Shown one piece after another: positions 3,001 to 24,192 of a stretch of 64,000 nt of DNA. The stretch spans positions 1,612,001-1,676,000 of the forward strand of contig JAUTDP010000002.1 of the NCBI GenBank assembly GCA_033439795.1, in the 5' to 3' direction. This DNA comes from Sordaria brevicollis (lineage: Eukaryota; Ascomycota; Sordariomycetes; Sordariales; Sordariaceae). The notes beneath the pieces are model-generated. The model did no database searches. It was not told the origin of the DNA and saw only the letters and a list, made by a program, of their open reading frames with translations. The position numbers were made by a program, and so were the translations under genes. Position 1 is the stretch's first letter. Each line of letters opens with the position of its first letter.

Positions 3001-6000
3001 CGACAAATGGAATCGACCCGGGTGTCCTCGCTCCCGCAACAACCACAGGCGGCTCTTTCCCAAGGCGTGAAGCAGAGACCAAGCAGAAGGCACCTGCTGC
3101 ATGCAGTCCTCCAATTGTCAAGCACGAGGTGGAAGAAATTTTCCAATTTTTTTTTCTTTTGGTGCCAGGCTGCTCGAACAACTCGGAGCGAGCCAACTCA
3201 AATCCATGACTGACTGGACTCTGTCCTTCCGCCGGTCTTCCATGTCTTGTCTGTCTAACTGTCGACACAGTACTCTTTTCCCCAAGACACAATGGCGACC
3301 ATTGCCCATTCGACATGTTTTCGCGCCAATCACGACAATAGCGTATCACATCCGTGTCCAGCACCTCCAATTCTACCCCCCAGGGCCCTAGGAGCAACAA
3401 AACTTGATCCAGTCCAGCAAAGGCATGTCTAGCATGGATGTGTGCCTGTCCATGACAACATGACAACAGAGTCCAGCGTCACCCCCGAGAGCAATATCGT
3501 CAAGTATTCAATCTCCGGCCTGTGTTCTTGGGCTTGTTGGGGTAAGTCGGGCACACCAACCGGGCGCCCGTTCGAGTGTCAGCTTTCCCGGCACTTCTTT
3601 TGCACATTGCTGATACGTATCATACAATTTCCATAGCAATTAGCCTCCTCGACGCCGTCTGTGTACCGAAACATGGGTGGGCCCTGTGCGGCGCATAGAA
3701 ACAAGAAGAGGTAGCGGCCATCCAGCTCTCCAAGGTCACTCGCAAACGCTGCCATTCTCTCTCCCCTGTTGGCCTGTTCAACGTAGGCCGCAAGCCACGC
3801 TATCTGAATGGCCAGAAAAAGACATGCCAAAAGTGTCACCTGCCCCTCCAGTACCCTCCACGACCCTCCATGCCAACCATTGGGCAAAGCGAGCACACCC
3901 ACCAAGACGCCCTCGACTATCCCGAACCGGGCTCTCGCTGCCCATCCACGCGCAAAAAGTCTTCAGGGAAGAAACTGTTCGGGCGATATTACCAGTCGGA
4001 GGCCACATCAGAGAGAGCATCATTACAAGTAAACCTTCATCCACGATAGGAACAGGTTAAGCCTCACCAAGTCTGGCCTGCCAGTGTGGGCGCAACCTTC
4101 TCGGCGTACCTTTATTGGCTGGGCCCAAAGACCATACACACCTCCTCCGATATCGAAGCCTTATGGAAGACCTCGATAGCACAACGCTGAGCAACCGGAA
4201 GGCTGGCAATGACGTGACCAGCTTCACAAAAACCTTTCTGACACCAAGTCTGAGAGAACACGATATTCGATGTCGGACAGCCTGCCGACTTGTGAAACCG
4301 TCAAGCCGGCCATATAGGACCTTCTGAACATCACCTGATACCTCCAAGGTTCGTACCTCTTTCTTGTCCTATTGATGCCACGCAAACATCCTGCCATTCG
4401 ACAACTTGGAGGCGCTAGCCCGTCTTATTGACCTCATGCTCGAAAATGACAAACGCATCATGATGAAGCAGCCCGTTGTTGGCAGGCCGCGGTTTGTGTT
4501 GCCAAACACCTCTCTTTACCCGATCAAGTCTTCCGGCTCGGATCACTGACCGCCAGTTGCGGAACGGGGCATCCTTAAGAAGGACGACATGACCCGTTGA
4601 GCACATGTGCCAAGGATGCCATAGCAACTGCCGTGAGGGTATTGCAAAGATGAGCCTCGATTGAGCGTCTCTTATTGTTCAGTCTTGATCTGTGCCAACC
4701 TTGGCCCGTTGCCTCGAGCGAAGCTCTGGCTGAACAAAACCTCTCGCCCTATCGATGTCGTGCCCTCTGTCGCCTCTGCCAGACTGGTCGCTGTGATGTA
4801 TCTGCACGCTCTCTATAAGCGGGCACTGGTCCCAGATTCGGCCAAAGATGCATCTACCGTTGGAATTCGACCCGCGCACGCTGTTCTGATGCCATCTAAA
4901 AAGGCCACAGGTGCCGCCGCTCTTTGCACGCACACGCAGGTAATAGGTATCCGCCTCCATGGGAGCAAATGTCCTCGCACAACAAACCCCTGCCATGATC
5001 CCATATTCATCCAACTTCAAGCAGCCTTCCTGGCCTCATTGAACGACACCAGGTTGAAGTTAACAAAAAGCAATGTGAAACTGGCGGTCGAAATGCGCTC
5101 GCTGTGAAGCGGACTTGCCTGAAATTGGGTTAACGCCCATAACCTCAGATGATCACCAGGCGTGTAACAGCTGAGGGGATTTGGCTCGGACAAAAACATG
5201 ATAATCCTGGCGAACTATACACAAGGCTGAGTTAATCACAAATCGAGATTTGTGTCCTCAACTCTGAAGTTCTTTATACAGCAACTGGCTGAGCAGCAAG
5301 TCATCTTCTTTCTACACACCGACTCAGGCCATTGACTGCCAGCCCGGCTCGAACATCTGCCCTGCCCAAGCCTCTGCCTCAACCTAACGAGACGTCACCA
5401 GCATCTCTCGACTCGTCCGGAGGTCTGACGAAGCTAATGTCCAAGAATATCATGCCGATCCACGACATTGACGGGTAAGCAGAGATACGCTACAACTACC
5501 CCTCATGGTCTAGTGTGAGATTTCTTGGCTTAGCCGCCTTACCCATCATGGGGCAATAATGGGGTAACTCGGGGTGACAACAGCGGCCCTTGTCGACGGA
5601 GCCGGCCTGTCAGGCTAACCCCCACACTATTACCGTCCACCACAGACGGGATCCTGGAAATAGGCCCCTGTTGTGCCCCTTCTGAAGACCCGCAAGACAA
5701 GGCCGACCGAACGTCTCTCAAAAGTTTGGAGATCAAAGAAGGGACAAAAGAAGCCGCACTGTATACTTTGGCTTTTCTTCTTCCCTTTTGCACGAATCAG
5801 AACGTCCCAATCCTCACCACTCCACGACCTCTGGCCCTCAGCTTGCCATGTCTCCATGCTTCGTCGTTCGGCCTGGGCGGCGATGGGTCTTGGCCCCAGT
5901 CTTTGAGTAGGCGTCCACCTGGAGTAACGCCACCAATCCCGCCGGGCTACTGCGTAAATCATCCCAAGCGGACAAGATCAAACTCAGACGACAATGGCAC

Positions 6001-19084: not shown

Positions 19085-20438
19085 TCAAGTTGCTTTGCTT
19101 TGCAACCTTCCCGAGCGTCTTCGTCCTGAGGTGTCGACCTCGGGTTCCTCTTTTGCCTTTGTGCCCCTTTTCGGCTTCTTGGAATCTTCAAAATACTGTG
19201 AGCTCGTAGCTGACTTCTTCGAGGACTGCGTCTTTGCTTTCTTGGGTGGCGCTGTCATCTCACTGTCCTCTTCTGTCTTGACGTTCCTCTTTCTAGACGC
19301 GGCCCTTTCTGTCTTGACGTCTGACTCCTCTGCCTTTGGCTCTTCGCTCTCAGCTTTTGACTTGGTCGCCTTCGCTCTTGGGGCTTTCTTCGGTGCCTCC
19401 TTCTCGTTGCCTGACTCGAGCGGTTCTTCCTTGATGCCTGACACAACCTGGCCAGTCTTCTTCTGCCTTGCGGGCGCATAGCAACTTGTGCGCCCGCCGA
19501 CAGTAATAAAGGCAAGCTTGTCGCCGTTGGGAGTATGAATGTGCGCATTCTTGGAACCTTTACCCCAGCGATAGTTGAAGAGCCAGTCGTCTGGAAACTG
19601 ATCGGAATCGCCGAGCTTGTCGACAGCAGTCTGGCAAACATATCTGATGTTCTCGTAGAGCCGCTTGATCTCGGCATCACTGAAGTCGTTGCAGTACTGT
19701 TCTGGGTGAAGCTTTGCTTGGTACAAGACCTCGTCGGCCACCCAATTTCCAATGCCACTAATAACGGCCTGGTCGAGCAGAAGAGCCTTGATGGGTACCT
19801 TGCGGGACTTCATCTTCTCGCGCAGATAGTCCTCAGTGAAGACATCGAGGTCAACCACCGGATCAGGACCGTTCTCCACGAGGGGAGAGTGTTTCCTGAT
19901 TTCCTTTCCGGGACATTCAACTGCGCGGACACGGCCAAATCGTCGTGGATCGGTAAAGGCCATCTCGTCGCCTTCTTTTGTGACGATTTTAAACTTCCAG
20001 TACTTTGGCGGCCACTTGTCGATTTCGTCGGCCTTCATCTTCTTGTAGTAGTTCGTGTATGCTGTCCTTTCGCCCTTGATGTGGATCCAACCGGTCATGC
20101 CAAAGTGCATTACAAGATGTGGAGGCTTACTCATTTCCATCCTAGAGATCGGTCAGTCGAAGACAAAGGCAAACGGCACGTCTTGGATTGCCTACCAGAA
20201 GTATTTTCCTTGTGTGCCAGCTGAGACAATCTTCTTTCCAATCAAACCAGCAGCCATCTTGGGTCCATCTGTCCCAACCTTACCAAATACGTTGGCGTCA
20301 TCAATGGCTTCTGCATGCTTGATGACCTTGCCTACAAAGTGCAGACGCAGAAAGTGGACGGCACGCGCAACTTCCTACCAGTCAGCTCAGGACATGTAAT
20401 AGGAAATGGAACAACATACTCTCAGCGATCTCAGGCAT
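19085..20438 (-). CDS. formamidopyrimidine-DNA glycosylase (Fpg/MutM family)
   Basis: Three exons: 20438-20420, 20370-20196, 20141-19085; 416 residues. This family removes oxidised purines such as 8-oxoguanine and cuts the strand by beta/delta elimination. The mature N-terminus MPEIAE supplies the catalytic Pro2 and Glu3; Lys62 in QGKYFW is the conserved domain-1 lysine. The helix-two-turn-helix block is LLLDQAVISGIGNWVADEVL. The finger motif GGRTSCYAPARQ keeps the arginine loop but lacks the four zinc cysteines, so this is a zincless finger as in plant and fungal enzymes. A 120-residue tail is rich in Lys, Glu and Ser and could target the nucleus. The 19-base first exon is required because it encodes the catalytic end. 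To stay in frame, intron 1 (49 nt) must end at GGAAG rather than at the TAG four bases earlier. It is divergent from the snoRNA host gene. Confidence 0.92.
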
Positions 20439-20818
20439 TTTTTTTTGTCCTGTTTACTCTGACTTTGGGGTTTGTTGTTCTCCGGAGTTGGTGATGACCT
20501 CATCGGCGGAAACGCGCTACGAGACGAGAAGCTGTGGTGGAGAACTGGAGCTTGCCCCACGCGAAAAAGAAACGACTACACGTGACTGGCCGTGAGAAAG
20601 TGAATGCTGTGAAGTGAACTGCACTTTCCTTATCGTTATCTTACCTTTGTGCCAGCGCCTGCCGCCCAATTGGCCTACCCCACCCAAACTTGCAGCCGAA
20701 ATTTTTCCCATTGGCCCCACAACTGTTGCAGCTTCAAAACCTCGCGCGCCTCAACTTTTTTCTGCCGCTTCCCACTTTCAACTTCCAACATCACCGAGCA
20801 TCGCCCAGTCCACTTTTG
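20439..20818. promoter_or_regulatory. divergent promoter region, Fpg gene / snoRNA host gene
   Basis: Only 380 bases separate the Fpg start codon (-) from the first donor of the snoRNA host (+). Both promoters and both leaders must lie here. Pyrimidine-rich stretches such as CTCAACTTTTTTCTGCC (about 20750) could be the host transcription start. No TATA box is obvious. Confidence 0.55.
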
Positions 20819-20865
20819 GTAAGTCCCAGATATTCTTCCAAGCACAGCACAAGCACAATCCCCCT

Positions 20866-20953
20866 CCGTCCTGATGACAACACCATAAACCGCAAACTAG
20901 AGTCTTTGATCCTACGGGAAATGCAACTAGATATGTACGTCAGTCTGAATGAC
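20866..20953 (+). ncRNA. box C/D snoRNA, snR78-like (intron 1)
   Basis: C box CTGATGA at 20871-20877 and D box CTGA at 20945-20948. The guide AAACTAGAGTC (20894-20904) is complementary to 25S rRNA GACUCUAGUUU. With D' box TTGA at 20906-20909, the fifth-nucleotide rule selects A20901, which pairs with the uridine equivalent to yeast Um2421, the snR78 target. The terminal stem is weak (GTC/GAC). It sits in intron 1 (20819-21030), with the branch site CTAAC at 21007. Confidence 0.85.
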
Positions 20954-21092
20954 AACGTATCAACACAATCGCGTCGCACATCATCCATTCTTCCTGGACG
21001 ATCTGGCTAACCAACGCAAAGTGCTTCTAGTGATTGAACATCACGGCCATATGGGCTTCGACGTATAGGATTGGGCGATTGGGGGGAGGGGA

Positions 21093-21188
21093 CGGGGGAG
21101 AGTCAAGACATGATCTTGTGCGGTCGACCGCGTTAAAACTGGCGGTCCTTTGAGCTACCCATTGGTTCATGTCTTGCGCTCTCCCTCG
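21093..21188 (+). other. long stem-loop inside host exon 2
   Basis: The arm 21093-21113 (CGGGGGAGAG, T, CAAGACATGA) pairs with 21167-21188 (TCATGTCTTG, CG, CTCTCCCTCG): 20 base pairs with one G-U pair and one small internal loop. The 53-nt apical part contains a GCGG-TCGA-CCGC mini-hairpin. It lies between intron 1 and intron 2, so it should stay in the spliced host RNA. It has no C/D boxes. It may be a separate structured RNA, a processing site or a stability element. Confidence 0.6.
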
Positions 21189-21234
21189 GGGTCATGGCAT
21201 TGAAAAGGTTGGTTCCCACATCATTTTCCCGCTC

Positions 21235-21324
21235 GCTTTCCTGATGATCAACTTTGCTTTTGCAAGTTGGAATTACCGATTGATACCCAATGAAAACATA
21301 AAATGGCTGTTTCTGATTGAAAGC
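21235..21324 (+). ncRNA. box C/D snoRNA, snR77-like (intron 2)
   Basis: C box CTGATGA at 21241-21247, D box CTGA at 21313-21316, closed by the stem GCTTTC (21235-21240) / GAAAGC (21319-21324). The guide at 21265-21278 contains GGAATTACCG and pairs with the universal 18S sequence CGGUAAUUCC over about 14 bp with one wobble. With D' box TTGA at 21280-21283, A21275 selects the U of CGGU, equivalent to yeast 18S Um578 (snR77) and human Um627. Intron 2 runs 21208-21388 (donor GTTGGT, branch CTGAC). Confidence 0.9.
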
Positions 21325-21473
21325 ACTTCATCCTTCTCGATGTGATTGCATACTTGGTTGTCGACCATGTGCTGACTTCCTCGTTCAGATGTCCAGGCTT
21401 TCCTTCCGCCCGACTCAGTAGTGGTGCCGCAACCAATTGTGAGTTGGTTCATTTTGCTGTCTCCTCCGACACG

Positions 21474-21568
21474 CTTTTATGATGAAACGGCACTGGGCTC
21501 CGATTTTTTCACATGAGCACGACATGCCATTTTGCGACAGGCCTAGAAAACCTCGTCCACTGATCAGC
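21474..21568 (+). ncRNA. box C/D snoRNA, snR76-like (intron 3)
   Basis: C box ATGATGA at 21479-21485 and D box CTGA at 21560-21563. The guide GCACTGGGC (21490-21498) pairs with 25S GCCCAGUGC. D' box CCGA at 21500-21503 makes G21495 the fifth nucleotide, selecting the C equivalent to yeast 25S Cm2197, the snR76 target. Intron 3 runs 21439-21633, donor GTGAGT, branch CTAAT at 21617. Confidence 0.85.
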
Positions 21569-21717
21569 ATCCATCATCAACACGTTTTGAAGCACATCAG
21601 CAACCATGAACGGTGACTAATGCGCTTCATCAGAGTACAGTTGGATTGCGACATCACTTGCTTTGTTTCCTAACACATTTGGTAAGTTACTTTTTCTCTT
21701 CGATGCACAACAACACC

Positions 21718-21810
21718 ATTCCATGATGATCCCTTTAGATGACGAGTCTTATCGGGGATTCCCCATGCAGACAAAACCTTTTTTATACCATTCATGCATT
21801 TCTGAAATTC
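21718..21810 (+). ncRNA. box C/D snoRNA, snR75-like (intron 4)
   Basis: C box ATGATGA at 21723-21729 and D box CTGA at 21802-21805. The first guide TTAGATGACGAG (21735-21746) is complementary to 25S CUCGUCAUCUAA; with D' CTTA at 21748, C21743 selects the G equivalent to yeast Gm2288 (snR75). A second guide before the D box, CCATTCATGC (21788-21797), pairs with 25S GCAUGAAUGG 19 nt further on and would direct methylation of a G at about yeast position 2307. Intron 4 starts at 21682 and has branch CTAAC at 21856. Confidence 0.85.
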
Positions 21811-21968
21811 CTCTTTACGATCAAGTCTTTTGCAGTTCTCAGTTGAACAACTTGACTAACGATCACCCAGACCACAGGTTGCACCGTATCTTCTCTCGAT
21901 GCTCGGGTTTTTTGGTATGTGCCTCTGTCTCTTTGCTTCGGCATCGAGCTTCCATTCCAGCCCATTTC

Positions 21969-22050
21969 CTTCCATGATGATCCGACAAAAATAAAGACAA
22001 GCATATGTCCGAGCTTTTGCGACGAAGACACACTGTCATGTCTGATCTTT
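21969..22050 (+). ncRNA. box C/D snoRNA, snR74-like (intron 5)
   Basis: C box ATGATGA at 21974-21980 and D box CTGA at 22042-22045. The guide GACAAGCATATG (21996-22007) is a perfect 12-nt complement of the start of 18S rRNA (CAUAUGCUUGUC). D' box CCGA at 22009-22012 makes T22004 the fifth nucleotide, selecting A28, the snR74 target in yeast (A27 for human U27). Intron 5 starts at 21915 (GTATGT) and has branch CTAAC at 22096. Confidence 0.9.
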
Positions 22051-22212
22051 GCACCATTTGCATCCTGTCACTTGGCCACTCTGCCTTGCAGCATGCTAAC
22101 GGTCACAAAGTCAGTCTTGCTTGGTTCAATAACCGGGAACGCATCGTCAGCATTGTCTCGCTGCTCAGAATGGTAAGCCAACATTTCCTCTTTCCAAGCT
22201 TGTTCAAGATGG

Positions 22213-22316
22213 CTACAATGATGAATAAAATTTATCACGACGGTCTACATAGGACTTGGCTTCGGCCTTGTCCCTTTGATGAAAAACGCCGATGACACGG
22301 CACCCGAACTGAGTCG
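22213..22316 (+). ncRNA. box C/D snoRNA, snR73-like (intron 6)
   Basis: C box ATGATGA at 22218-22224, D box CTGA at 22309-22312, and a C'-like TTGATGA near 22276. The boxes are enclosed by an exceptionally long stem, 22196-22213 with 22316-22333: 18 bp, 15 of them perfect in one run (CTTGTTCAAGATGGC and its complement). The guide TCACGACGGTCTA (22235-22247) matches 25S UAGACCGUCGUGA over 13 nt. To select the C equivalent to yeast Cm2959 (snR73), the D' box would start at 22248, where the sequence (CATA) is degenerate. Intron 6 runs 22173-22381. Confidence 0.9.
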
Positions 22317-22431
22317 CCATCTTGAACAAGTTTTTGTTTTTTGTGCGAGCCAATGAACCCAAGCTAACATGCTGGATTCAGGAATAACTTGTCTGGTGTT
22401 CTTACCATGATGGTCCATCGAGCAGCTTCAG

Positions 22432-22899
22432 GTAAGTCATTGTCGAGCTGTACATCTCGACCTCGTAGGCCATTGAACCAAAGTGGTTCTTTGGAGTCGT
22501 GACTTCTGTCACATCGTAGACATGCCATTGGCAACCTGGCGAGTTGGATATCATCGATAGTCAGAATTGAAAAGAATTCATGAGCGTACCTTTTGTTCCC
22601 CCTGATGTTTTGTGAAGCCTGTGCCACATTGCCAAGTGCCTTTATTGTCCAAAGATGAGTGCAGCGATCTGTTGTCATTTGTATTCTGATGGCGTGATTG
22701 CCATCTTCCGGAGCCGGCGCTCAACTTTGTCACCTAGTTCCCCGTACCTGATTTCCCATGCCAGCCGATAATTGCTTCCTAGAGCTTGGAGTTGGTGATG
22801 GGTCCTACCACCAACGAGAGACGTAACCGTAGGCACTTTCCTGGCTGGCAAATTGCTCGAGGAAGAGGCTGCTTTGTCAGCGCCGTTGTCCCGTAGGTT
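22432..22899. other. host-gene 3' part without an identified snoRNA
   Basis: A strong donor (CAG/GTAAGT) starts at 22432, but no C box with a matching CTGA follows within the usual spacing. Several short hairpins are visible (GTGAC-TTCT-GTCAC near 22499, GAACC-AAAGT-GGTTC near 22475, TGCCATTGGCA near 22523). An H/ACA RNA is possible, but I could not assign its H and ACA boxes. Exon limits here are unresolved. Confidence 0.4.
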
Positions 22900-23007
22900 C
22901 CCTTCTGATGATCACATGGTTCGTGGGATATCGGCTTTCCGGTCAATCTCGGAAATCATTCGTTCTGTGACAAGAACAAATCACAAGATACAACGAACCT
23001 GATATCC
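22900..23007 (+). ncRNA. candidate box C/D snoRNA, snR72-like
   Basis: C box CTGATGA at 22905-22911 and D box CTGA at 22999-23002. The guide AATCATTCGTT (22954-22964) pairs with 25S AGCGAAUGAUU with one wobble. With a D'-like CTGT at 22965-22968, T22960 selects the A equivalent to yeast Am876, the snR72 target. A CTGAG at 23056-23060 puts a possible branch adenosine 57 nt after the D box, the same spacing as in the six clear introns, with an acceptor at 23087. No good donor is seen just upstream and no terminal stem is evident, so this is less certain than the other six. Confidence 0.6.
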
Positions 23008-23338
23008 AAGACACACGCCAAAGCATCAGTTGCTCAACTCTATTTCATGGTACACCTGAGACCTTGTAAAACACGCTCGAAAACCAGAAGTCAAGAGGAG
23101 ACATGACCATCAGGAAAGTACCGTAGCAAACCGTATGAACCAGGAGGTAGCTCTATGTAAACCAATTCCCGCCTGTAAACAAGATCCCTTTACTCGGGGC
23201 AGATTCCCATCTTTTTGTGATCCTTCTTTAGTATATCCAAATCCCGTTACCCAAAGCCTTTGCAAGTACATATCAACCCATCCGATCTTAACCTCTACTC
23301 AAACAACCTCTGTGTGACCTGCCACATCCCGTCACCCC

Positions 23339-24192
23339 TTACGACGAACCGTTAACACACAACTTCCCCTCCCTCTCCTCCAAATATCTCACCATATCCT
23401 CAATCGTACAAACCTTCAACCCCCACCTCCTCGCAAACTTGACGCACTGCTCCCCCCTCATCATGCCCGGCTCCCTGCGAATAGCCTGCCCTTCGACCTC
23501 CTCGCCATCATCCACAAGCTCGCTAATCACCGCCGCCTCCCTCTTCCCAGCCAACCGACACAAATCAATCGCCGCCTCGGTATGTCCCCTCCTCTCTCTC
23601 ACACCCCCGACCCTCGCCCTGAGGGGGAATACATGCCCCGGTCTTCTGAGGTCATCCACCTTCGTCTTAGGGTCAGCAAGCTCCCTGCACACCAGCGCGC
23701 GATCGTGAGCGCTGATACCCGTAGTCACCGAAGGATCGGCCGAGTCGACGGAGATGGTGTAAGCGGTGGCGCGCGGGTCTTGGTTCGCGGTGACCATTTG
23801 CGGCAGGGCCAGCTCTTCGCAGCGAGAGGGAAGGATGGGCGCGCAGATGAGACCCGAGGAGTAGCGCACCATGAAGGCCATTTGTTGGGCGGTGACGGAT
23901 TCGGCGGCGATGATGAGGTCGGCTTCGTTTTCGCGGCCGGGGTCGTCGAGGACGACGACGAATTCGCCGTTGCCTGCGGAGGTAAGGTGTTAGTCAGAGT
24001 CTTAAGGAACATATGGGCCCCTGAGGAGAAGAAGGATCTAAGGTTGGAGGGGAAAGGGTGACTGCCGAGGAGGGAAACTGCAGAGGGGAAAATGGTGGGA
24101 AGGAAGACAGGAAACATACGGAATGCCTCGACGGTGTCGGGGATGCTGTCAAATGCTGACGAGTCCATTCTTGATTCTTGTTGGGAAGCCAT
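23339..24192 (-). CDS. RIB3: 3,4-dihydroxy-2-butanone-4-phosphate synthase
   Basis: Two exons: 24192-24120 and 23973-23339; 235 residues. The enzyme converts ribulose 5-phosphate to the four-carbon unit of riboflavin, releasing formate. Family blocks in order: DDPGRENEADLI (acidic loop that binds Mg and substrate), TTGISAHDRA, RRPGHVFPLRA and RRGHTEAAIDLCR. The length equals the single-domain fungal enzyme; no GTP cyclohydrolase II domain is fused. The first ATG of the frame was taken. The 146-nt intron joins Arg-25 (C/GC) to the NGEFVVVLDD strand and has a CTAAC-type branch. It is convergent with the snoRNA host and divergent from COQ3 across 1.3 kb. Confidence 0.95.

Follow-up and report, generated by a model that had tools for sequence, protein, structure and literature searches.

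Intronic clusters of box C/D snoRNAs have been reported in Neurospora crassa, where 'snoRNA gene cluster I' was described. In the published table (PMC2780460) its six members, CD5, CD24, CD12, CD7, CD21 and CD31, are all intronic and on chromosome VI, and CD5 is a double guide that includes the guide for the equivalent of 25S A876. The N. crassa host transcripts are reported to have little coding potential and to occur in isoforms without exon 2 or without exons 2 and 3, and RT-PCR evidence for the clusters has been published. In the Euascomycetes studied by Luo et al. 2013, cluster I has the order snR78-77-76-75-74-73, all members are intronic, and snR72 is fused with snR78 and lost from the 3' end (PMC3596301). 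The cluster is unspliced in Saccharomyces cerevisiae and its close relatives, and Luo et al. derive the intronless form from degeneration of splice sites, after their reference 15 (PMC3596301). That most fungi splice this cluster whereas Saccharomyces has it without introns is a finding credited to Mitrovich et al. 2010 (PMC5033589).

We analysed a 64,000-nucleotide stretch of Sordaria brevicollis DNA, referred to here as the window, whose positions are used throughout. At a probability of about 95%, its sequence features identify the locus as the S. brevicollis copy of cluster I, with a non-coding, spliced host that carries one box C/D snoRNA per intron. As in the Euascomycetes of Luo et al. 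2013, the six members keep the published order and snR72 is fused with snR78. The members, their order and the targets of six are shared with the S. cerevisiae snR78-snR72 polycistron; that unit is unspliced and cut by Rnt1 (PMC5033589) and keeps snR78 and snR72 separate, whereas the two are fused in S. brevicollis. A sequence-only reading of the window had proposed a spliced fungal host with changed processing relative to the yeast polycistron. Our results support the spliced host, and the contrast with yeast was already in print (PMC3596301, PMC5033589). It had also noted that intronic clusters were known from N. crassa, which is correct. The species list of Luo et al. 2013 is without S. brevicollis (PMC3596301). 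Among 12 listed papers on the S. brevicollis genome, no title concerned snoRNAs; an entry for the species in the catalogue of Canzler et al. 2018 may exist.

Six snoRNAs and their host introns

On the + strand, positions 20867 to 22314 hold six box C/D snoRNAs in the order snR78-77-76-75-74-73, as assigned by Rfam matches, boxes and guide pairing. TGATGA and CTGA are present in all six, with a C instead of a purine before TGATGA in snR78/72 and snR77. Each of the six has an Rfam match, and three pass the gathering score: snR75 (80.7 bits, E 7.7e-15), Afu_513 (74.9 bits) and Afu_300 (55.6 bits). The matches to SNORD27 (35.7 bits, gathering 52), snR73 (32.9 bits, gathering 37) and snR78 (25.8 bits) lie under their own gathering scores, and the snR78 match (E 0.52 when 3 kb were searched) is weak by itself. 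Afu_300 (snR77) and Afu_513 (snR76) are overlapped by weaker matches to snoR77Y and snR76 (40.2 bits, gathering 55 for the latter). SNORD27 is equated with snR74 on the basis of the N. crassa table, which gives U27 and snR74 for A28 (PMC2780460). When the genome was searched with 20760-23087, the only match was the locus itself. The neighbouring gene encodes an Fpg-type protein.

Intron 1 (20819..21030, 212 nt; GTAAGT ... GCTAACC ... TAG) hosts snR78/72 (20867..20950; C 20872, D' TTGA 20906, D CTGA 20945). Exon 2 (21031..21208; 178 nt, provided that AAG/GTTGGT, a weak 5' splice site, is used) separates it from snR77 (21237..21318; C 21242, D' TTGA 21280, D 21313). Further downstream, snR76 (21475..21565; C 21480, D 21560) lies in intron 21439..21633 (GTGAGT ... 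ACTAATG ... CAG), snR75 (21721..21807; C 21724, D 21802) in 21682..21870 (GTAAGT ... ACTAACG ... CAG), snR74, of SNORD27 type (21970..22046; C 21975, D 22042), in 21915..22114 (GTATGT ... GCTAACG ... CAG), and snR73 (22214..22314; C 22219, D 22309) in 22173..22381 (GTAAGC ... GCTAACA ... CAG).

By sequence motifs, a branch motif and YAG occur in all six introns and a GTRNGN 5' splice site in five, so that five snoRNAs clearly have an intron of their own. Of the six consecutive introns with one C/D snoRNA each that had been proposed, five are clear, and the snR77 intron is without a normal 5' splice site. The nearest candidate there is AAG/GTTGGT at 21209, on which the lengths of both exon 2 and the snR77 intron hinge; the sole GTRNGN between 21030 and the snR77 C box, GTGCGG at 21118, falls within a predicted hairpin. 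Predicted introns measure 180-212 nt and predicted exons 44-58 nt, except exon 2. From 5' splice site to C box the distances are 53, 33, 41, 42, 60 and 46 nt, five of the six inside the 41-60 nt range usual in N. crassa. The longest ATG ORF on the + strand of unspliced 20700-23300 encodes 96 aa.

Going by what is established for box C/D snoRNPs, the introns would be spliced out and their lariats debranched, exonucleases would trim the RNAs back to the C/D core that proteins cover, and the resulting particles would 2'-O-methylate the equivalents of 25S U2421, A876, C2197, G2288 and C2959 and of 18S U578 and A28. In Fusarium graminearum, loss of Dbr1 is reported to lower five intronic snoRNAs, none of them from cluster I (PMC9606315, accessible text).

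Pairing of the guides with S. brevicollis rRNA

Searches of the genome with three sequence patterns, one of them faulty, and with a 25S piece found no intact rDNA; the patterns matched nothing, and the 25S piece matched at least six places at 71-75% identity. Contig C1 starts with tandem rDNA units of ~9.6 kb each, 12 of them in its first 200 kb, and an rRNA reading was built from an alignment of 11 RIP-mutated copies out of the 12 seen. Among 7005 alignment columns, A and G are mixed in 1458, C and T in 1137 and other letters in 3; the A/G and C/T mixing is the mark of RIP. In the resulting reading of 7001 nt, C or G was taken wherever at least one copy retains it and leftover t/a is ambiguous (T may be C, A may be G), and the guide pairings were scored through this ambiguity. 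The copies match the Rfam LSU and SSU rRNA models, with SSU position 1 at reading position 1159.

All seven expected guide-site pairs, six with D' guides and one with a D guide, show 10-14 nt of pairing in the species' own rDNA with the target at D/D'+5. The D' and D guides of snR78/72 (20893-20904 and 20934-20943) pair with the equivalents of 25S U2421 over 12 nt and 25S A876 over 10 nt, and that of snR77 (21265-21278) with 18S U578 over 14 nt. The guides of snR76 (21489-21498), snR75 (21735-21746), snR74 (21995-22007) and snR73 (22235-22247) pair with 25S C2197 (10 nt), 25S G2288 (12 nt), 18S A28 (13 nt) and 25S C2959 (13 nt). Compared by table, the N. crassa cluster I snoRNAs have the same targets and near-equal guide lengths, at 12, 10, 13, 10, 12, 13 and 13 nt for U2421, A876, U578, C2197, G2288, A28 and C2959 (PMC2780460).

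The six D' target sites fall at reading positions 1186, 1733, 5610, 5701, 5834 and 6368. Position 1733 is 18S position 575, the same as the N. crassa number, and with a single offset of 3451 each of the five 26S sites of N. crassa falls into place on the reading. The spacings of 91, 133 and 534 equal the differences between the N. crassa numbers 2159, 2250, 2383 and 2917, so that the spacings counted beforehand, 91 from C2197 to G2288 and 133 from G2288 to U2421, were right.

Some of the pairings, taken singly, are not rare against shuffles. With register ignored, the observed run was matched by 1 of 2000 composition shuffles for U578, 2 for C2959 and 21 for G2288, and by 73 for A28, 75 for C2197, 96 for U2421 and 202 for A876. 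Runs off the expected pairs also occur, at 13 nt for the snR77 unit at U2421 and 10 nt for the snR78 unit at A28. The D' boxes of four of the six snoRNAs are degenerate (CCGA, CTTA, CCGA and CATA) and were placed to fit the +5 position; only the three guides that have TTGA or CTGA therefore offer an independent check of register. When every NTGA box was scanned against the reading, the best score was 20, not above the 15-27 of 20 shuffled sequences, and among the expected guides snR77 alone ranked high; the scan has little power because of the RIP ambiguity.

N. crassa CD24, its snR77, has a guide to U5-A62 (PMC2780460). No counterpart was found at a single S. brevicollis U5 locus, which came from a search with 46 of 5207 candidates scored; the two best runs there were 10 nt and lay outside the U5 match.

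The degenerate D' boxes, the weak splice site and the three Rfam matches below gathering score are what a decaying or pseudogene cluster might display. That reading is scarcely credible, given that the C/D boxes and guides are intact, the run lengths are like those published, and the genome has only one matching place.

The A876 guide and the 3' end of the cluster

The A876 equivalent is at reading position 4307 (856 + 3451). In 20760-23120, five runs of at least 10 nt pass through it, and only that of the first snoRNA's D guide has an in-register CTGA after it; exon 2 carries a 13-nt run through the site with no box behind. Judged by pairing and box together, the first snoRNA is the double guide snR78/72, its A876 guide adjoining box D; the 202 shuffles that reach 10 nt were counted with the box ignored.

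The sequence-only reading had instead proposed that seven separate snoRNAs follow one another as in yeast, the last being a stand-alone snR72 at the 3' end that guides A876. It gave no coordinates for the seventh, which we took to be the stretch with a C-like box at 22906 and a D-like box at 22999 (22900..23005). Those two boxes, 93 nt apart, are in its favour, as are an internal TCGG at 22949 that can pair, allowing for RIP, with two stretches of 18S over 13-14 nt, and three runs of 10-11 nt through the A876 site elsewhere in 22430-23120, at 22491, 22560 and 23014. Yet the longest run through the A876 equivalent within 22900-23005 is 6 nt, which 1944 of 2000 shuffles equal, and none of the three neighbouring runs is followed by a CTGA-like box. 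The 18S runs are irrelevant to A876, and shuffled sequences scored 15-27 in a similar, stricter scan that excluded wobble and mismatch. Against the rRNA reading, the candidate's box D guide scored no higher than 11, no Rfam match appeared at E up to 1, and the fold is unremarkable (z -0.89, 40 of 200 shuffles as good). With the A876 guide located in the first snoRNA and loss of the 3' snR72 reported for Euascomycetes, a stand-alone snR72 here is very unlikely; none was found in the cluster, as published (PMC3596301). Downstream of snR73, CAG/GTAAGT at 22432 and the next branch motif and YAG (22747/22764) outline a predicted intron without a recognised snoRNA.

Six of the seven proposed snoRNAs are thus upheld by Rfam matches and guides, and the seventh is not. 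All seven proposed target sites are paired in the RIP-mutated reading, but the one for A876 is served from the double guide snR78/72 at the opposite end of the cluster.

Strong stems and a possible RNase III route

Among 75 fold windows, two had z below -3: 21080-21239 (-3.32) and 22200-22359 (-3.92). The first covers an exon 2 hairpin (21096..21185) that lies after snR78/72 and before snR77, a candidate RNase III-type element; folded as 21090-21185 it reaches -44.5 kcal/mol and z -5.18, with 0 of 200 shuffles as good. It was first chosen by eye, and other bounds give z -3.2 to -4.7. The second overlaps an external stem around snR73 (22196..22333; arms 22196-22213 and 22316-22333, 18 pairs with G-U allowed). 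Refolded as 22199-22330, it has z -6.54 and again 0 of 200 shuffles as good, and an external helix of more than 7 pairs occurs at snR73 alone among the seven units.

It is possible that the two structures are RNase III-type signals within the spliced cluster; the snR73 stem could be an RNase III substrate or an aid to box C/D assembly. Release of snR77 may rely on the weak 5' splice site or come about when exon 2 is skipped. A further route would be hybrid maturation, in which RNase III also cuts the exon 2 hairpin, freeing the 5' side of snR77, and the snR73 stem, so that both snoRNAs can mature without full splicing. The fold scores, the snR77 intron without a normal 5' splice site and the singular helix of snR73 are consistent with such a route, and the genome has five RNase III domain matches in three places, their types undistinguished. 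In Schizosaccharomyces pombe, Pac1 cuts a hairpin of the snR107-snoU14 precursor, another snoRNA host in which a strong hairpin lies close to splice sites; that hairpin spans an exon-exon junction after splicing, whereas the S. brevicollis one lies within one predicted exon (PMC12508059). Against the hybrid route stand the selection of the exon 2 hairpin by eye and its drop to z -3.2, the possibility that the snR73 stem merely helps box C/D assembly, and the report that exon 2 of N. crassa is spliced or skipped. We regard it as rather unlikely, and a cluster built as a dual-mode unit, spliced and also equipped with RNase III-type stems at two members, as unlikely.

The accessible text of Luo et al. 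2013 makes no mention of the exon 2 hairpin or the snR73 stem, and notes inverted repeats of 8-12 bp at some gained introns (PMC3596301). The spliced S. brevicollis cluster, in which the snoRNA gene order is conserved and the processing differs, is of a kind known before. What is new is modest: all guides are checked against the species' own rRNA, the snR72 assignment is corrected, and two strong stems are added. With the stems, a route that combines splicing and RNase III becomes open to direct test. Were it true, a dual-mode unit would link the spliced operon to the intronless, Rnt1-cut form of yeast with the snoRNA output kept.

Helices and a possible intron around the snoRNAs

Exon 2 of the host gene, which lies between the double-guide snR78/72 and snR77, contains a strong predicted hairpin at window positions 21096-21185. 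Within this hairpin, positions 21129-21141 hold a 13-nt run able to pair across the A876 site of 25S rRNA, if the target is read from RIP-mutated rDNA copies in which T may stand for C and A for G. This run is not followed by a box D and is probably due to chance. Farther downstream, snR73 is enclosed by a predicted 18-pair stem (arms at 22196-22213 and 22316-22333). Of the seven units compared, the other six have external helices of 7 pairs at most. A possible intron with a good 5′ splice site (CAG|GTAAGT) occupies positions 22432-22764; no recognised snoRNA was found within it, and it might be a relic of a former snR72 intron.

The snR77 D guide and the flanking genes

The N. crassa counterpart of snR77 (CD24) has a U5-A62 guide on record (PMC2780460), whereas none was found at the D guide of S. 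brevicollis snR77 (21313) against the species' own U5 locus, the single locus compared (L089). The cluster is flanked by minus-strand genes, an Fpg-type DNA glycosylase gene (19085-20152) and an ORF (23339-23989) that, judged by eye, looks like a putative dihydroxybutanone phosphate synthase.

The RIP-mutated rDNA array

Sequence searches and the array units yielded no intact rDNA unit in the S. brevicollis genome. Contig C1 carries 12 tandem rDNA units at its end (1-118000); the 11 aligned units have a GC content of 21-27% with RIP-type changes, and AT-richness is lowest in the outermost unit. Filamentous ascomycetes are known to carry RIP-mutated rDNA (PMC5555474).
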